Positions 3,995 through 41,079 of a stretch of 41,079 nucleotides of DNA are shown in pieces (the stretch's first letter is position 1; each line of letters begins with the position of its first letter). Origin of the DNA: a virus. The notes below the pieces were generated by a model that made no database searches, had not been told where the DNA came from, and saw only the letters and a list, made by a program, of their open reading frames with translations. The DNA is taken from the IMG/VR virus record IMGVR_UViG_3300031565_000114, positions 1 through 41,079 of that record, one strand, 5' to 3'. The position numbers and the translations under genes are program-made.

Positions 3995-4531
3995 GCGGGG
4001 CAGACAGCCAAACAGGCGAAGCGCAATGAGAGCTTTCCCGACCGACTGCTTGAGCGGATCGACCGGCTCGGCGACCGCATCGACCTGGAGGGCCTGGAGT
4101 CGCCATCCCCTCCGCCGCCCTCGGCGACCACCGTCGCCGGCGCTCAGCCGGAGTCGCCCGGGCGAAGGCCGGGGCGGCCTGAGCGGCAACCTTCAACCAC
4201 AGAGAGAAAGCAATCCACCATGAACATGGAACAAGCCGTGAGGGAAATCATCGAAATCCTCGCCCCAGACCCGGGGGACTTCAGAGACTGGCAGCATCGA
4301 ATGCGGCAGTTGCGCAAGCACCTGGAGGCCCAGGCCTTCGGCGACCCGAAAGAGCGGAAGAAGCCGGACAAAGAGATCTTGGACTATTACATGGCCTGTT
4401 TTCTGCGTATAGCCGTTGGACCGCGTGGGACGCTGGAGCCGGCGGCGGCCATCGTGCAGACGGCCGAGGCCTACGACATGGAGCTCTCCGTGGTCAAGGG
4501 CGTCATCAAGCGGGGGCTCGACTTGAATTGA
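3956..4531 (+). CDS. Hypothetical protein, duplicated-start fusion (191 aa; internal start at 4220)
   Basis: The ATG at 3956 follows GAGAAAGGAAA. The product has two halves. Residues 1-60 form a helical segment (MKMEEAIRELLHIAG...), then a Pro-rich linker, then residues 89-191 start again with MNMEQAVREIIEI and continue as a helical domain. DNA around 4153-4258 is a diverged copy of 3888-3994, including a second ribosome-binding site (AGAGAGAAAG) and ATG at 4220 in the same frame. A separate 103-residue protein (4220-4531) is therefore probably also made, or was the original gene. No family recognised. Position between scaffold and capsid genes suggests a head assembly or decoration role, unproven. 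Confidence 0.6.
   Translation: MKMEEAIRELLHIAGQTAKQAKRNESFPDRLLERIDRLGDRIDLEGLESPSPPPPSATTVAGAQPESPGRRPGRPERQPSTTERKQSTMNMEQAVREIIEILAPDPGDFRDWQHRMRQLRKHLEAQAFGDPKERKKPDKEILDYYMACFLRIAVGPRGTLEPAAAIVQTAEAYDMELSVVKGVIKRGLDLN
4153..4258 (+). repeat. Segmental duplication, copy 2
   Basis: Diverged copy of 3888-3994, offset by about 265 bases. It still contains the scaffold's old 3' end in its own frame (Val-Ala-Arg-Ala-Lys-Ala-Gly-Ala-Ala-stop), but the present gene reads it in another frame as a Pro/Gly/Arg linker and runs on into the second start at 4220. Confidence 0.85.
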
Positions 4532-4555
4532 TCCGTCTTTTTTTCTGGACGGATC
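4530..4555 (+). other. Hairpin with T7 loop at gene end
   Basis: GATCCGTC (4530-4537) pairs perfectly with GACGGATC (4548-4555) around a ten-base loop containing seven T. It begins inside the stop codon of the preceding gene. The T run is in the loop and not after the stem, so it is not a standard intrinsic terminator. It could instead be a protein or RNA binding site, or a weak pause. Confidence 0.6.
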
Positions 4556-4574
4556 GGAGGAGTTCGGATAGAAT
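4546..4574 (+). promoter_or_regulatory. Candidate promoter for the capsid operon with CGGA repeats
   Basis: TGGACG (4546-4551) and TAGAAT (4569-4574) lie 17 bases apart, a plausible though imperfect sigma70-like pair. The spacer contains CGGAGGAGTTCGGAT (4555-4569), which occurs in inverted orientation within the spacer of the strong promoter at 28097. CGGA occurs at 4550, 4555, 4565 and 4575, the last three at exact ten-base steps, as expected for a site bound on one face of the helix. Confidence 0.45.
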
Positions 4575-4579
4575 CGGAT

Positions 4580-4601
4580 TCGCTCTTTGACACGGGCATA
4601 G
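4580..4601 (+). promoter_or_regulatory. boxA-like antitermination element
   Basis: TCGCTCTTTGACAC (4580-4593) followed four bases later by ATAG is repeated with the same spacing at 29342-29363. CGCTCTT is the core of lambda nut boxA (CGCTCTTA) and is close to the rRNA leader boxA (TGCTCTTTAACA), where NusB and NusE load. A role in reading through the structured leader that follows is inferred. Confidence 0.45.
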
Positions 4602-4763
4602 TCCTCCGGGGGACCCGGCCGGCGTCGTTCGCCGGCGGGCGGGTCCGGTGCACGCCGAAAGCAGGCCGCCGACCGGGCGTGAAGCGGCAGTGGATGGGTC
4701 CGCCCCTCGGGGCGGGGGACCCAGCGATTCCATCGTCACACCTTTGGAAAGGCTGGGTCCATC
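4594..4763 (+). promoter_or_regulatory. Structured 5' leader of the capsid gene with competing stems
   Basis: This stretch holds no likely gene. GGACCC (4611-4616) pairs with GGGTCC (4641-4646) around a seven-pair inner stem (4618-4624 with 4630-4636). GGGTC (4696-4700) can pair with GACCC (4718-4722) around CGCCC/GGGCG. The same GACCC, as part of GGACCCAGC (4717-4725), can instead pair with GCTGGGTCC (4752-4760), only three bases before the ATG. The second arrangement would place the GGAAAGG ribosome-binding site in the hairpin loop. Alternate pairings of this type occur in RNA switches and in leaders controlled by a bound protein. Confidence 0.55.
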
Positions 4764-26759: not shown

Positions 26760-26792
26760 CGTTGTTAGCCTCCAAGGCAGGTTAACAGCCAC

Positions 26793-26819
26793 GGCCCCGG
26801 TGCTTCAACACGCGGGGCC
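26793..26819. other. GC hairpin between membrane gene and endolysin
   Basis: GGCCCC (26793-26798) pairs with GGGGCC (26814-26819), with an inner GTG/CAC pair set. It lies in the 119-base gap between the leftward 86-residue gene and the endolysin start. Rightward it is followed by ACTTT, leftward by no T run. It might moderate endolysin expression or end rightward read-through. Confidence 0.45.
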
Positions 26820-26878
26820 ACTTTCGTAAAGCCTACGGTCCCTATCGACTGCAGGCAAACGGGACTTGAGAAAATCGG

Positions 26879-27139
26879 CTACAAACCACGATCTTTGCAG
26901 CCGAGGAGATAGCCGGCGATCACGCCAAGGACCCAGGGGCCCACGGAAACCTCGCCGAAGCATAAAGCGCTGATCGAACCAAGACCGAAAAAGACGAGGA
27001 GCGGCCAGTAATCGGGATCGATCAAGTTCGCCCAGAAACCGCCCGGCGGCTTATATCCATCCATGGAACGGAGGCCCCAATAATGGAGCCTTCTCGCGAT
27101 GAAACCCGGCTTGCGGGGCTTGGCCGTAGGATCGTTCAT
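26879..27139 (-). CDS. Small membrane protein sharing a motif with the giant ejection protein (86 aa)
   Basis: A GGAG box lies 8-10 bases ahead of the ATG at 27139. Residues 1-12 are basic and polar. Residues 13-33 (FIARRLHYWGLRSMDGYKPPG) match 13 of 21 positions of residues 1074-1094 of the 1,889-residue ejection protein. Two hydrophobic segments follow (WPLLVFFGLGSISALCF and GPWVLGVIAGYLLGC). It belongs to the leftward lysis/membrane group. Possible roles are a holin partner or an inner-membrane protein that mimics or docks the ejection protein; neither is shown. Confidence 0.62.
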   Translation of the reverse strand: MNDPTAKPRKPGFIARRLHYWGLRSMDGYKPPGGFWANLIDPDYWPLLVFFGLGSISALCFGEVSVGPWVLGVIAGYLLGCKDRGL

Positions 27140-27499: not shown

Positions 27500-27626
27500 T
27501 TTTCTTTTCCTGCAATAAAAGGCAGTGGTTGGGCGTCTGAACGGCAAAACCGTTAAGGAGAGACCATGTTCGATATCAACGCGCCCAGGGGCCTTCGTCC
27601 CGTTGGCGTTCGCGGCCCTGTCGCGA
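27500..27626. other. Intergenic segment upstream of the leftward lysis group
   Basis: It holds AACGG-caaaa-CCGTT, a five-pair hairpin, and a rightward AAGGAGAGACCATG that opens an Arg-rich ORF to 27775 which I do not accept as a gene. No convincing leftward promoter was found by eye. Confidence 0.4.
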
Positions 27627-28016
27627 TTACCCGATTTTGTGGCGACCCCGTGCTTTCTGCGATTGTCCAGTGCCTGCGGACCGTCCGGCCTTCGTTCCGT
27701 GCTGCGCTGCTTCGTCAACTTCGGCGTCGCGCACCGTTTCTGCTGCCAGGTCGTCCTCCCCGTCGCGCCGGTTGACGCTCCCGGGGCCATACTCGGCCAG
27801 GAGCTGGCGAAAGCCCTCCTCGATCTGAATGCGCTCCGTCTTGCCGTACAGGGCGAGCAGCTTGAGCCAGTCGGGGGCGCTGAGGAACAGCCGAAACAGG
27901 GCTTTCAGGAGGTGGCGATTCGAGACATCGCGGCCCATCGCCCATCGTTCGTATTCGTCCCACATCGAATCCGGGATTGTGGCTTCAAATTTATGCACGT
28001 TTGGTAATTGCGCCAT
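27627..28016 (-). CDS. Ribbon-helix-helix DNA-binding regulator candidate (129 aa)
   Basis: Residues 8-52 fit an Arc/MetJ-type ribbon-helix-helix: a strand (HKFEATIP), helix (DSMWDEYERWAMGRD), a Ser-led turn (VSNRH) and helix (LLKALFRLFLSA). The middle is helical; the last 45 residues are charged and low-complexity. The gene is read away from a region with a strong divergent promoter (28097) flanked by an inverted repeat (CGGTATTAT), as expected for an autoregulating phage repressor or switch protein. No ribosome-binding site is clear, so translation may be weak or leaderless. No CI-type repressor is visible elsewhere. Confidence 0.6.
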   Translation of the reverse strand: MAQLPNVHKFEATIPDSMWDEYERWAMGRDVSNRHLLKALFRLFLSAPDWLKLLALYGKTERIQIEEGFRQLLAEYGPGSVNRRDGEDDLAAETVRDAEVDEAAQHGTKAGRSAGTGQSQKARGRHKIG

Positions 28017-28063: not shown

Positions 28064-28128
28064 CGGTATTATTCTGAAAAAATGCAAATTTCCCTGTTGA
28101 CATCCGAACTCCTCCGACGATAATACCG
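28064..28128. promoter_or_regulatory. Operator-like inverted repeat flanking the promoter
   Basis: CGGTATTAT (28064-28072) and its exact complement ATAATACCG (28120-28128) are 47 bases apart centre-free. The right arm covers the -10 hexamer TAATAC of the rightward promoter. The left arm lies toward the regulator gene. The separation would allow looped binding of one repressor at both arms. Confidence 0.55.
28097..28126 (+). promoter_or_regulatory. Strong sigma70-type promoter
   Basis: TTGACA (28097-28102), an 18-base spacer, then TAATAC (28121-28126): a perfect -35 and a five-of-six -10. The region is AT-rich in an otherwise GC-rich genome. Transcription would start near 28133. The spacer holds ATCCGAACTCCTCCG (28102-28116), the reverse complement of 15 bases in the capsid promoter region at 4555-4569. 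Confidence 0.8.
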
Positions 28129-28132
28129 GCAT

Positions 28133-28560
28133 GATGACTCCATCGATCCAGATCATCAGCGGTTTGCATCCCTTCGACGGGCTCCTCCAGGGCGGATCCA
28201 TTGTACCGGATCGCGGGCAGCGCGTCAAGGGAAATCGTTCGCTCTCCCGGCGGGCGCGGCCTCGGATCGATGGAGTCGCTCCAGCCTCGCCCGCCTTCTC
28301 CCGCCGGTTTCCGAGGGCCGGGCGATCCGCGGCCGCAAGGTCGCGGCTCGCCCCTCGGTTGGCATCGCGACCATATCCATGGGCGGCCCGGCAGACGCTC
28401 CCTCCGTCTGCCTTCCGCACGGGCCGCCCCGATTTCTTGTGGCTTTCGGTGCGTCCGCGTTCCGGGCGCCCGATTCCGTGCTCGCTGGGCCGGGGGTCCT
28501 CGACGATGGGCAGGGAGGCCCGTCGCCGAGCCCCTGGGCCGGTGCGAGCGAAAGGCAGGT
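28133..28560 (+). ncRNA. Candidate large structured non-coding RNA
   Basis: About 430 nt follow a strong promoter, and no reading frame looks like a protein. Stems seen by eye: TGATGA/TCATCA (28132-28137 with about 28153-28158); CCGGCGGG near 28248 with CCCGCCGG near 28299, competing with GGCGGGCG/CGCCCGCC; 28311-28358, a three-part hairpin of 5, 6 and 8 pairs capped by a GCAA tetraloop; 28381-28429, a ten-pair and a seven-pair stem; 28480-28549, a long stem from GCTCGC/GCGAGC to CGATGGGC/GCCCGTCG. The pattern resembles ornate phage RNAs such as GOLLD or ROOL in general style only. It could also be the leader of the 64-residue gene that follows. Confidence 0.62.
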
Positions 28561-28565
28561 CAAGG

Positions 28566-28760
28566 ATGGAACTCTGGCACTTGGCGGCGATTGTCGCGGG
28601 CCTTGCGTTTCTGAGCCTCACGATGGCGGCGGGCTGGTGGCTCGGCTATCACACCCATATTAACGAGGCCCTGGAGTTGTATTGCCGCACGGGCGGCTTC
28701 TGGCACCGGGGCAAGCATTACGACGTCCGGGCGACGGAGCCGATGGCCGAAAAGGAGTAG
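28566..28760 (+). CDS. Small membrane protein downstream of the structured RNA (64 aa)
   Basis: The longer reading that begins at 28131 runs through the structured region and is Arg/Pro-rich, so I take the ATG at 28566, preceded by AAAGGCAGG. The product has a hydrophobic amino half (LWHLAAIVAGLAFLSLTMAA and a Trp-Trp-Leu-Gly-Tyr end) and a charged half with one Cys and several His (YCRTGGFWHRGKHYD). No family recognised. Expression should depend on the promoter at 28097 and may be controlled by folding of the long leader. Confidence 0.6.
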   Translation: MELWHLAAIVAGLAFLSLTMAAGWWLGYHTHINEALELYCRTGGFWHRGKHYDVRATEPMAEKE

Positions 28761-28764
28761 AGTT

Positions 28765-29118
28765 ATGGATAGAACAGTCCACTTTCTCGCGTTTGAAGAA
28801 TTTAGTCACGCAAATTTGGTACGATGTCGTGAGTCGTTCCATGAACTTGAGGATTGGTCCGAAACTGACTGGGCTTGTGCCATGGCTGGTGAAGTAGGAG
28901 AAGTGTGTAATCTCATCAAGAAACGGAGACGGGGTGAATTAGTCGATGCTCGCGCTATCGCGGCCGAGTTGGCCGATGTCGTCACGTATGCAGATTTGCT
29001 GGCCCGACGGCTGGACATCAATTTGGGCATGGCCGTGGCCTGCAAATTCAATGAGGTGAGCGAGCGAGTCAGTTCGCCAATTAGACTTCAGTACGAGTTG
29101 CTGGCCGAGAGGGAGTAG
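28765..29118 (+). CDS. MazG-like nucleotide pyrophosphohydrolase
   Basis: The ATG follows AAAAGGAG. This 117-residue protein has the all-alpha NTP-pyrophosphatase signature: E43-x-x-E46 (AGEVGEV) and E68-x-x-D71 (AAELADVVTYADLLA), which bind magnesium, with Lys-Lys-Arg-Arg between and KFNEVSERV after. Enzymes of this class hydrolyse (d)NTPs to NMP and pyrophosphate; phages use them to adjust nucleotide or alarmone pools. Codon use is clearly more AT-rich than that of the late genes, suggesting a recent arrival. It is followed three bases later by another small gene. Confidence 0.82.
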   Translation: MDRTVHFLAFEEFSHANLVRCRESFHELEDWSETDWACAMAGEVGEVCNLIKKRRRGELVDARAIAAELADVVTYADLLARRLDINLGMAVACKFNEVSERVSSPIRLQYELLAERE

Positions 29119-29461: not shown

Positions 29462-30523
29462 ATGGCAACACTGAGAGAGTTGTGCGCGGAGTACTGCCGC
29501 GTGCAGCAATACGAGTTGACGCACTCCACCCGGCAGACGGCCCGGCGGGCGTGCGTGCTGTTTGACAAATGGGCGGGCTCGCCGGAGGTCGCCGGCCTGT
29601 CGCGGCAAGCGGGCGACGGCTACAAGAACTGGCTCGTCTCGACGGGTCGCGGCAAGAACACCGCGAATATGTACCTGCGAGCGATCCAGGCCCTGTGCAA
29701 CTGGGCCGTCGAGACGGACCGTCTGGCGGTCAATCCGCTGGCCGGCTGCCGGCAGTTCCGCGTCACGCGCAAGGCGGTGACGATCTACGAGGACTGGCAG
29801 TTCGAGCGGATGCTCCACTGCCTGCCGAGGCCGACCAAGGCGGACCCCGATCGGGACCTCCGCTGGCTGGGCCTCTTGTGGGGGGCCCGGACGACGGGCT
29901 TTCGACGGGGCTGCCTGCTGAATCTCACCGGGCCGAACGTCCGGGGCGGGATGGTCTGGGTCGAGCCGAAGGGCAAGACGGCCGAGACGTGGCCCTGGGA
30001 GCCGAAGGATCGGGAGATCCGCAAGGTCCCCCTGGCCCCGCAGTTCGCCGAGGTCCTGGCGTACTTTCGGGGTCGGACCTATCCGCTCGTGGCGCCCTCG
30101 ATGGCGGAGCGGCTGCTGCGCTGGCAGCGCGACGGGCGGCCGCTCGATGACTGGGCCCCCTGGCGGAAACTGCCGGAGCTGAATTTCCGGCGGGTCTTCG
30201 TCGGGATTCAGAGGCGGGCCTTCGGGCGGCAGATCGGCGACTGGCACCAATTCCGCAGAACGTACACGACCGCCCTCGCCGAGGTCCTGCCGGACAAGGC
30301 GATCATGGAGTTGACGGGCCACAGCCGGCGGGAGACGCTCGATCCGTACACAGCCGTAAGGAGTTCACACTGGCGGGCGGCCTACGAGTGCGTCGCCGGC
30401 GTGCTCAAGAAAGGCCCCGGCCGCATCCAACTCTTGCGGCCGTCGCACGTTACCGCCCCCTGGCGCGGCCCGGGACTCGAAGGTCAAGGGCCCGATTGGG
30501 CGGTACAGGACTCGAACCTGTGA
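29462..30523 (+). CDS. int: Tyrosine recombinase (phage integrase)
   Basis: The ATG at 29462 has AAAGGAGG 8 bases upstream and is preferred over 29411. The 353-residue enzyme has an amino-terminal core-binding domain (about 1-105; SAM-like, with TGRGKNTANMYLRAIQALCNWAV) and a catalytic domain with Arg148 (TTGFRRGCLLNL), His262 and Arg265 (WHQFRRTY), His287 (TGHSRRE) and the nucleophile Tyr296 (LDPYTAVRSS). It inserts and excises the phage genome at a tRNA gene. The last eight codons (WAVQDSNL) are antisense to the 3' end of the tRNA-like attP at 30497-30558, and the stop codon lies within the T arm. Confidence 0.92.
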   Translation: MATLRELCAEYCRVQQYELTHSTRQTARRACVLFDKWAGSPEVAGLSRQAGDGYKNWLVSTGRGKNTANMYLRAIQALCNWAVETDRLAVNPLAGCRQFRVTRKAVTIYEDWQFERMLHCLPRPTKADPDRDLRWLGLLWGARTTGFRRGCLLNLTGPNVRGGMVWVEPKGKTAETWPWEPKDREIRKVPLAPQFAEVLAYFRGRTYPLVAPSMAERLLRWQRDGRPLDDWAPWRKLPELNFRRVFVGIQRRAFGRQIGDWHQFRRTYTTALAEVLPDKAIMELTGHSRRETLDPYTAVRSSHWRAAYECVAGVLKKGPGRIQLLRPSHVTAPWRGPGLEGQGPDWAVQDSNL

Positions 30524-30558
30524 CCCTCTGCGTGTAAAGCGGAGGCGCTGGATCGCCC
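30497..30558 (-). other. attP: attP: partial tRNA-Val(UAC) sequence
   Basis: On the minus strand this is a tRNA lacking its D arm. It has GGGCGAT/ACCGCCC acceptor halves (one mismatch), an anticodon stem-loop with loop TTTACAC (anticodon TAC at 30534-30536, one C-A mismatch in the stem), and a perfect T arm ACAGG-TTCGAGT-CCTGT (30521-30505). No CCA is encoded. It is 62 bases and not about 73. This is the expected identity block by which a phage restores the 3' half of the host tRNA-Val gene after integration. I regard it as attP, not as a working tRNA. Confidence 0.85.
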
Positions 30559-30893
30559 GATCAGGCGGTCGAATCCGTGCGCGGCAGCGGGTCAGATCCT
30601 AACGCAAGACAGAACCGAGGCAAACGGCAAACTTCTCCAGATCGCGGCGTAGCCAGCGCGCTCTCTATATCCGGAGGCTGGTCGCGATCTGGCGGGGTGT
30701 TTTCAAACCTACAACCGCGCTGATGTACCGCGTACAGCATGAGCCGAAGTTGATCGGTCGGCAAGGAATTGTGTTGGAAACGTACATCAACTTTTCTCAA
30801 GATCATTATTTACCCGATGCCTGTCGCGCCGCACCGACAGAACTGGGGCCGTCTGTGATAGTCAGATAAGGATCCGGAGTGCGGCAGCTTTTC
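30559..30893. other. attP-flanking non-coding region
   Basis: No accepted gene lies here. It holds the inverted GGCAAACGGCAAAC pair (30619-30632), a large inverted repeat (30637-30692), and an AT-rich part near 30780-30810. A leftward ORF (30561-30806) exists but has no ribosome-binding site. Confidence 0.55.
30637..30692. repeat. Long inverted repeat after attP
   Basis: CCAGATCGCG (30637-30646) pairs perfectly with CGCGATCTGG (30683-30692), and CCAGC (30653-30657) with GCTGG (30677-30681), with a 19-base loop. CGGGGTGTTTT follows. It could terminate integrase transcription or be a recombination or regulatory site. Confidence 0.7.
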
Positions 30894-40861: not shown

Positions 40862-41079
40862 ATGAGACCCTACGACCATCCAACGACTCTGGCGGGCGCT
40901 GACGACGCCGGTCCGGCCGCGGGCGGCGGCGACCACAACCCGGCGGCGTGCCGCGGGTGCCGCGACTGGAACGACGTCGCCGGCGAGTGCTCGCTTGAGG
41001 AACGGGAGCGAATGACCCTCTGCGGCTGGCGGCCCCCGAAACGTGAAGCCGTCCAGCGCTCGCACTGGCCGCTCTTCGC
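40862..41079 (+). CDS. Cysteine-rich mini-protein, 5' part (continues at 1-202)
   Basis: The ATG at 40862 opens a reading frame (MRPYDHPTTLAGADDAG...) that reaches the right end of the window and continues in the same frame at base 2. The first cysteines (CRGCRDWN) are encoded in this copy as well as in the left repeat. Position 41018 is C, giving Leu where the left copy gives Phe. AATGAAGGCG precedes the start; no strong ribosome-binding site. Confidence 0.7.
   Translation, partial: MRPYDHPTTLAGADDAGPAAGGGDHNPAACRGCRDWNDVAGECSLEERERMTLCGWRPPKREAVQRSHWPLF
40891..41079. repeat. Terminal direct repeat, right copy
   Basis: Identical to bases 1-189 except at 41018 (C versus T at 128). Removing one copy gives a circular unit of 40,890 bp. 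Confidence 0.93.

Follow-up and report, generated by a model that had tools for sequence, protein, structure and literature searches.

Introduction

To our knowledge, the phage switches described so far are almost all decided by proteins and known from only a few cultured hosts. The rightward and leftward promoters of phage 186 overlap by about 60 bp. The immI region of phage P22 combines the ribbon-helix-helix repressors Mnt and Arc with the sar antisense RNA. In 186, pR exerts transcriptional interference on pL (PMC7708051). Phages also carry large structured RNAs, GOLLD and ROOL, which are often located near tRNAs and have kissing loops (PMC12286853).

Here we consider a locus from a virus record of IMG/VR; the window is the whole stretch of DNA analysed, 41,079 bp. 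The region 28097-28565 is explained best, with a probability close to even (about 0.48), as a lysis/lysogeny switch combined with the structured leader of a rightward transcript. The best reading of this leader is that the transcript contains the integrase gene, is either untranslated in this region or starts without a leader, and carries a recognition hairpin.

The record and related loci

The record is classed as linear. It has a 189-bp direct repeat of 99.5% identity at its ends (1-189 and 40891-41079), and the sequence of relatives spans the joint of the two ends, which suggests that the record is complete. Its gene content includes terminase, portal, capsid, ParB and a tyrosine integrase, and the phage is probably temperate. 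The style of the intergenic regions allows a guess at a host from Planctomycetota; two scans of genome contigs for the host gave no match. The features of the switch region and of the downstream genes are as follows.

27566-27775, plus strand: small gene that carries the motif DPVLSAIVQCLRTVRPSFRAALLRQLRRR, overlaps the divergent gene in antisense and is conserved in L027 and L040
27627-28016, minus strand: small divergent gene encoding 129 aa, a putative repressor assigned to the ribbon-helix-helix type by eye only
28064-28072, plus strand: left arm of an operator-like inverted repeat, CGGTATTAT
28097-28124, plus strand: near-consensus sigma-70-type promoter P+, TTGACA (from 28097), spacer of 16, GATAAT (to 28124); 11 of 12 consensus matches, predicted start about 28131
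28120-28128, minus strand: right arm of the CGGTATTAT repeat, overlapping the -10 box of P+
28200-28228, minus strand: facing promoter P-, TTGACG-17-TACAAT; 10 of 12 matches, predicted start about 28193
28566-28760, plus strand: predicted membrane protein of 64 aa, coding-like
28765-29118: MazG-like gene, the codon use of which is unusual (GC3 0.55 versus about 0.9), probably a recent acquisition
29462-30523, plus strand: tyrosine integrase

No nucleotide homologues of 28097-28565 as a whole were found by blastn in cultured phages, plasmids or the records compared. Protein scans with the 64-aa gene, for which relatives were sought, the divergent gene and ParB gave no match. The terminase search yielded two close relatives, the fragments of which stop short of 28 kb. 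Since sequence searches gave no homologues, relatives were selected by synteny, as the same locus in phages with a related integrase (80% identical in L026, 52% in L027). The same integrase family is present in the window, L026, L027, L040 and L043, and the DNA of these loci has diverged beyond alignment. Despite this, the loci look orthologous by gene order, because they share the integrase family and, in the window, L027 and L040, the small overlapped upstream gene. The 3' end of the window's integrase gene is overlapped on the minus strand by a tRNA-Val-like 3' piece (30497-30560), 41 nt of which are 97.6% identical in L027; this is likely attP.

Facing promoters

The earlier note described a near-consensus promoter ahead of a structured stretch. 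The promoter is confirmed: its TTGACA-18-TAATAC is the P+ site read 2 nt further on. The note did not have the facing promoter (28228-28200), the divergent gene that is its target, the switch context, the possible leaderless frame or the 14-bp stem described below.

P- lies inside the 5' domain of the structured stretch, and none of 500 shuffles gave a promoter as good. Counterparts occur at the same place in L040 (TTGACC-17-TATACT, 10 of 12 matches, 1 of 500 shuffles as good) and in L027 (TTGGTT-17-TATAAT, 9 of 12, 8 of 500). The predicted starts of the two promoters are 62 bp apart in the window, 62 bp in L027 and 74 bp in L040. Thus, as scored by consensus matches only, all three loci have the layout of a 186/P2-type switch, in which two sigma-70-type promoters face one another with a short overlap.

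In each of these loci P- points toward a divergent small gene. The divergent genes of L040 and L043 resemble each other (38%). Pfam and AlphaFold2 gave no confirmation of the ribbon-helix-helix fold for the divergent genes, with no family match and models of low confidence. CGGTATTAT occurs just twice in the 41-kb record, at the two arms listed above. In L027 and L040, the -35 boxes are overlain by palindromes (GTTGACATATGTCGAC and GCCGTTGACAAACGGC).

Predicted structure of the proposed leader

The RNA that would start at P+ contains the following elements.

28136-28149, plus strand: 5' arm of the stem P1, GACTCCATCGATCC, starting about 5 nt into the transcript
28169-28232, plus strand: long imperfect hairpin within the P1 domain, pair probabilities mostly above 0.8, with the reversed -10 box of P- near its apex
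28264-28277, plus strand: 3' arm of P1, GGATCGATGGAGTC, pairing with 28136-28149
28303-28363, plus strand: hairpin C, capped by GCAA, inner 8 bp with probability 1.00
28381-28429, plus strand: hairpin A', a two-part stem, diverged candidate member of the constant-loop family, with the common core CUCCCUCCG
28398-28403, plus strand: apical CUCCCU, complement of AGGGAG at 28512-28517, proposed kissing pair
28446-28473, plus strand: hairpin D, probability 0.93-0.99
28480-28549, plus strand: hairpin B, a four-tier stem with the apical loop AGGGAG

The hairpins proposed in the earlier note, namely the GCAA-capped one at 28311-28358, the two-part stem at 28381-28429 and the stem at 28480-28549, were recovered, as were the competing pairings around 28248-28308. 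The comparison of folding energy with shuffled sequence, suggested there as a check, gave z -3.96 for 28131-28570, none of 100 dinucleotide shuffles being as good. However, the minus strand of the whole stretch has z -4.68, and being equally stable it means that stability by itself is no proof of an RNA. In local 150-nt windows at 28276, 28351 and 28426 the plus strand has z -3.25, -3.93 and -3.05 versus -0.81, -1.93 and -2.24 on the minus strand; equal local stability is observed at about a dozen other places in the same phage. The plus strand also folds better than shuffles across loci (z -3.5 in the window, -3.2 in L027, -3.3 in L040). Across the record, local stability is greatest on the minus strand at 26776-26925 (z -6.9) and 4501-4650 (z -6.6); these two structures are perhaps terminators.

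The window had no Rfam match at the gathering score, and a permissive search gave matches at chance level only. A terminator scan found none near 28.1-28.6 kb, and there is no clear terminator ahead of the 64-aa gene.

P1 is a perfect long-range stem of 14 bp that encloses the first 140 nt (p<0.001, 1000 shuffles). A long inverted repeat is common to the window, L027 and L040. It begins 3-6 nt downstream of the P+ start and is closed 130-161 nt later, with 14 (p<0.001), 10 (p<0.001) and 8 (p=0.06) perfect pairs, respectively, and unrelated sequences. A stem of 7 pairs was detected in L042 (p=0.115), and the same check showed no notable 5' stem in L026. The complete order of promoter, P1 and hairpin is common to three loci only; in L026, L042 and L043 genes intervene between the promoter and hairpin A, the constant-loop hairpin described below.

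A reading frame from the predicted start

The earlier note saw no natural-looking protein in this stretch. Codon statistics agree from about 28250 on, where the GC content by codon position is 0.66/0.70/0.74 versus approximately 0.6/0.5/0.9 in genes, and coding log-odds are negative in all six frames. The claim does not hold entirely, as one frame is open from the predicted start.

28131-28760, plus strand: open ATG frame, possibly leaderless, 209 codons, running in frame into the 64-aa gene

It scores best among the plus-strand frames over the first 150 nt, and for the first 40-50 codons its codon score lies between those of true and wrong frames; past approximately 40 codons, up to the 64-aa gene, its codon use is non-coding-like. 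An ATG is found at the predicted start in the window, L027, L040 and L043. It has the form GGC-ATG in three of the four, with nearly constant spacing from the -35 box, and the distance to P+ is common to the window, L040 and L043. That the frame is open in the tested loci is jointly unlikely (shuffle p 0.31, 0.068 and 0.063, and 0.001 in L042), but in L042 it crosses a likely gene lying in another frame.

Protein-like conservation, which the earlier note named as an observation against an RNA, was not found over the stretch, the first 50 or so codons being the part where this is not clear-cut. Protein similarity between phages is marginal and has no consistent register, some out-of-frame controls scoring equally high, and the constant loop falls in one frame in L027 and in another in L040. 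The first 50 or so codons may encode a leaderless peptide, which would be compatible with a structured leader.

A family of hairpins with a constant loop

In L026 and L027 the integrase is preceded by non-coding DNA, and the two loci have a 15-mer, TTCCTCTCCCTCCGC, in common. In both it forms part of a hairpin loop, TCTCGCTT..CCTCTCCCTCCGC, closed by a GC-rich stem that differs between the two. All viral contigs were scanned with the pattern TCGCTTN{0,5}CTCTCCCTCCGC, of which the stems were no part. Eight records were found, and in all eight the loop lies in a GC-rich hairpin. The sequences of L038 and L044 are identical, leaving seven distinct members.

In six of the seven, the loop ATCTCGCTT..CCTCTCCCTCCGC is closed by a GC-rich stem with 8 or more perfect pairs (null 0.0037 each), and the seventh, L026, has a bulged stem. 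Compensated changes occur at all eight inner stem positions, and the 5' arms have an average identity of only 38%. Stem pairs were counted by a script, because MAFFT misaligned the variable arms. In most relatives the hairpin is followed by a T-rich tail. The nearly invariant 22-letter loop, the invariance of which is partly a product of the exact-letter query, on stems that have been rewritten would mean that the loop is read by something, be it a protein, a tRNA, an mRNA or the loop of another RNA; it also provides a sharp, searchable signature.

At the sensitivity used, no member was found in cultured phages or plasmids, and the family has no match in Rfam; a permissive Rfam search of L040 gave chance matches only, apart from tRNA. 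Covarying pairs without an Rfam match, the outcome that the earlier note had expected of a new RNA, are thus observed for the loop hairpins; the signs are weaker for the 5' stem and for the AGGGAG hairpin. This family with a pyrimidine-rich, nearly constant loop of about 22 nt has no entry in the catalogues searched and may prove to be a new class.

Several other interpretations of the loop were rejected. Apparent matches in Azospirillum plasmids proved not to be hairpins of this type. CCTCTCCCTCCGC resembles a tRNA-Ser 3' end, hence a candidate attP, but the integrase 3' end has its own tRNA-Val-like piece, and the loop has no T-loop. The loop does not encode a protein motif ISLPLPP, as the frame is shifted in L026 and the frames of L027 and L040 differ. 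A search for loop targets in phages gave no consistent site, and no site in E. coli rRNA was better than those for shuffled loops.

tRNA genes are located 0.2-1.5 kb downstream of the constant-loop hairpin in L040 (about 949-1212), L042 (8267-8341) and L043 (10233-10304). On the minus strand of L038 (about 1450-1650) the hairpin is at a break of a DNA methylase-like frame, directly before a tRNA-like sequence; this position suggests that the hairpin may be mobile.

Hairpin A' as a possible member of the family

Among the 46 hairpins of the window with at least 8 perfect pairs and loops of 20-34 nt, the one at 28381-28429 fits the constant loop best (score 10.5, the next 7.5). However, one unrelated hairpin among the 297 in other loci also reaches 10.5, and therefore this score is only suggestive by itself. 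The stem of A' has 10 bp. Its loop has diverged and most of the constant loop is lost, CUCCCUCCG and TCCGC being retained; the T tail is weak, only GATTTCTT.

Among the loci compared, the best match to the structured stretch is in L040 (27 nt, 89%, E 0.004; GGGCAGGGAGGCCC..CGCCGAG.CCC). It corresponds to hairpin B and lies directly 3' of the constant-loop hairpin of L040, as B follows A', with an apical AGGGAG in both. This match at the corresponding place strengthens the assignment of A' to the family. The order of elements in L040 is that of the window: promoter, long 5' stem, loop hairpin, AGGGAG hairpin. In the window and L040 the CU-rich loop contains CUCCCU, the exact complement of AGGGAG; such a pair was seen in none of the other members. 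On these grounds A' looks like a diverged copy of the constant-loop hairpin, which is suggestive, and a CUCCCU/AGGGAG kissing pair is possible.

Alternative explanations and a possible mechanism

The transcript from P+ might be a leaderless mRNA. The ATG at +1 (28131) would then open the frame of a small, fast-evolving protein or of a leader peptide, and the RNA structure would be of secondary importance or would take part in translation-coupled attenuation. We consider this doubtful, though a serious candidate: the recurrent ATG, the open frames and the intermediate score of the first 150 nt speak for it, and the non-coding codon use further on, the unstable protein register, the loop in different frames and the gene crossed in L042 speak against it. 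In an unlikely alternative the repeats function at the DNA level: the divergent protein would use the P1 arms and the CGGTATTAT pair as operators, with DNA looping across P-, and the hairpins would be ordinary terminators or insulators. The stability of the minus strand, the restriction of CGGTATTAT to two places, the palindromes over the -35 boxes and the T-rich tails of hairpin A would fit. On the other hand, the P1 arms are not clear palindromes and differ wholly between phages, terminators have no need of an invariant 22-nt loop, and the plus strand is locally the more stable over 28276-28575.

The earlier note left the choice between a free-standing phage RNA and a regulated leader. The leader fits better, because there is no clear terminator before the 64-aa gene and the relatives have a similar stretch between the switch promoter and the integrase. 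A free-standing ornate RNA of the GOLLD/ROOL sort, forming an RNA-only particle by kissing loops, is very improbable. It would agree with the phage location, the CUCCCU/AGGGAG complementarity in the window and L040, and the tRNA genes near hairpin A in three loci, but Rfam has no match to the window or its relatives, the stretch has just about 420 nt and leads into a gene operon, and most relatives lack the AGGGAG partner. Least probable of all is chance folding of GC-rich non-coding DNA. The GC content of the stretch is indeed 70%, and equally good local folding occurs elsewhere in the phage. However, dinucleotide shuffles never reach its energy, P1 has p<0.001, and the conserved layout in relatives largely refutes chance.

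Under the preferred reading, a switch with a structured leader, transcription from P+ would run rightward from about 28131, crossing the structured stretch and then the 64-aa, MazG and integrase genes, and transcription from P- would run leftward from about 28193 over P+ to the divergent small gene, which likely encodes the repressor. A bistable choice would result from transcription interference together with binding of the repressor close to P+. When P+ fires, the nascent RNA would close the long 5' stem and then hairpins C, A', D and B. The CU-rich loop presented by hairpin A is the likely recognition element, with a protein, a purine-rich RNA or, in cis, the AGGGAG of hairpin B as candidate readers. 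The stem and the T-rich tail in most relatives suggest conditional termination ahead of the integrase.

More tentatively, and well short of even odds, we propose a new class of regulatory RNA in phages. Its hairpin would have a pyrimidine-rich loop of about 22 nt that is invariant and a stem free to vary, and would be spread across phages with little common sequence. Here it would be set in a leader of about 420 nt at a face-to-face switch, its loop read by a factor or paired with the AGGGAG hairpin, and would control entry into the integrase operon.

Comparison with known systems

Hairpin A is similar to intrinsic terminators and attenuators in its GC-rich stem, its T-rich tail in most relatives and its position ahead of the integrase, but differs in having a loop of 25-29 nt with an invariant sequence, and in the window copy the T tail is weak. 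From GOLLD and ROOL, to which the earlier note had pointed, the window differs by the lack of a covariance-model match, the shorter length and the leader-like place upstream of genes.

As in immI of P22, a small putative regulator, possibly of the ribbon-helix-helix type, adjoins a proposed regulatory RNA in what would be the immunity region. However, sar is a short antisense RNA, and the ribbon-helix-helix assignment of the window regulator is putative; homologues of ant and arc were covered by the family scans only. The likeness to 186 and P2 lies in the facing promoters with an overlap of approximately 60 bp, of which the leftward one would here drive a putative repressor gene. No sequence relation to these phages was seen, and the present locus differs from them in the long structured rightward leader and in the integrase gene on the rightward side. 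This probable switch, from an uncultured lineage, appears to join facing promoters with a long structured leader.
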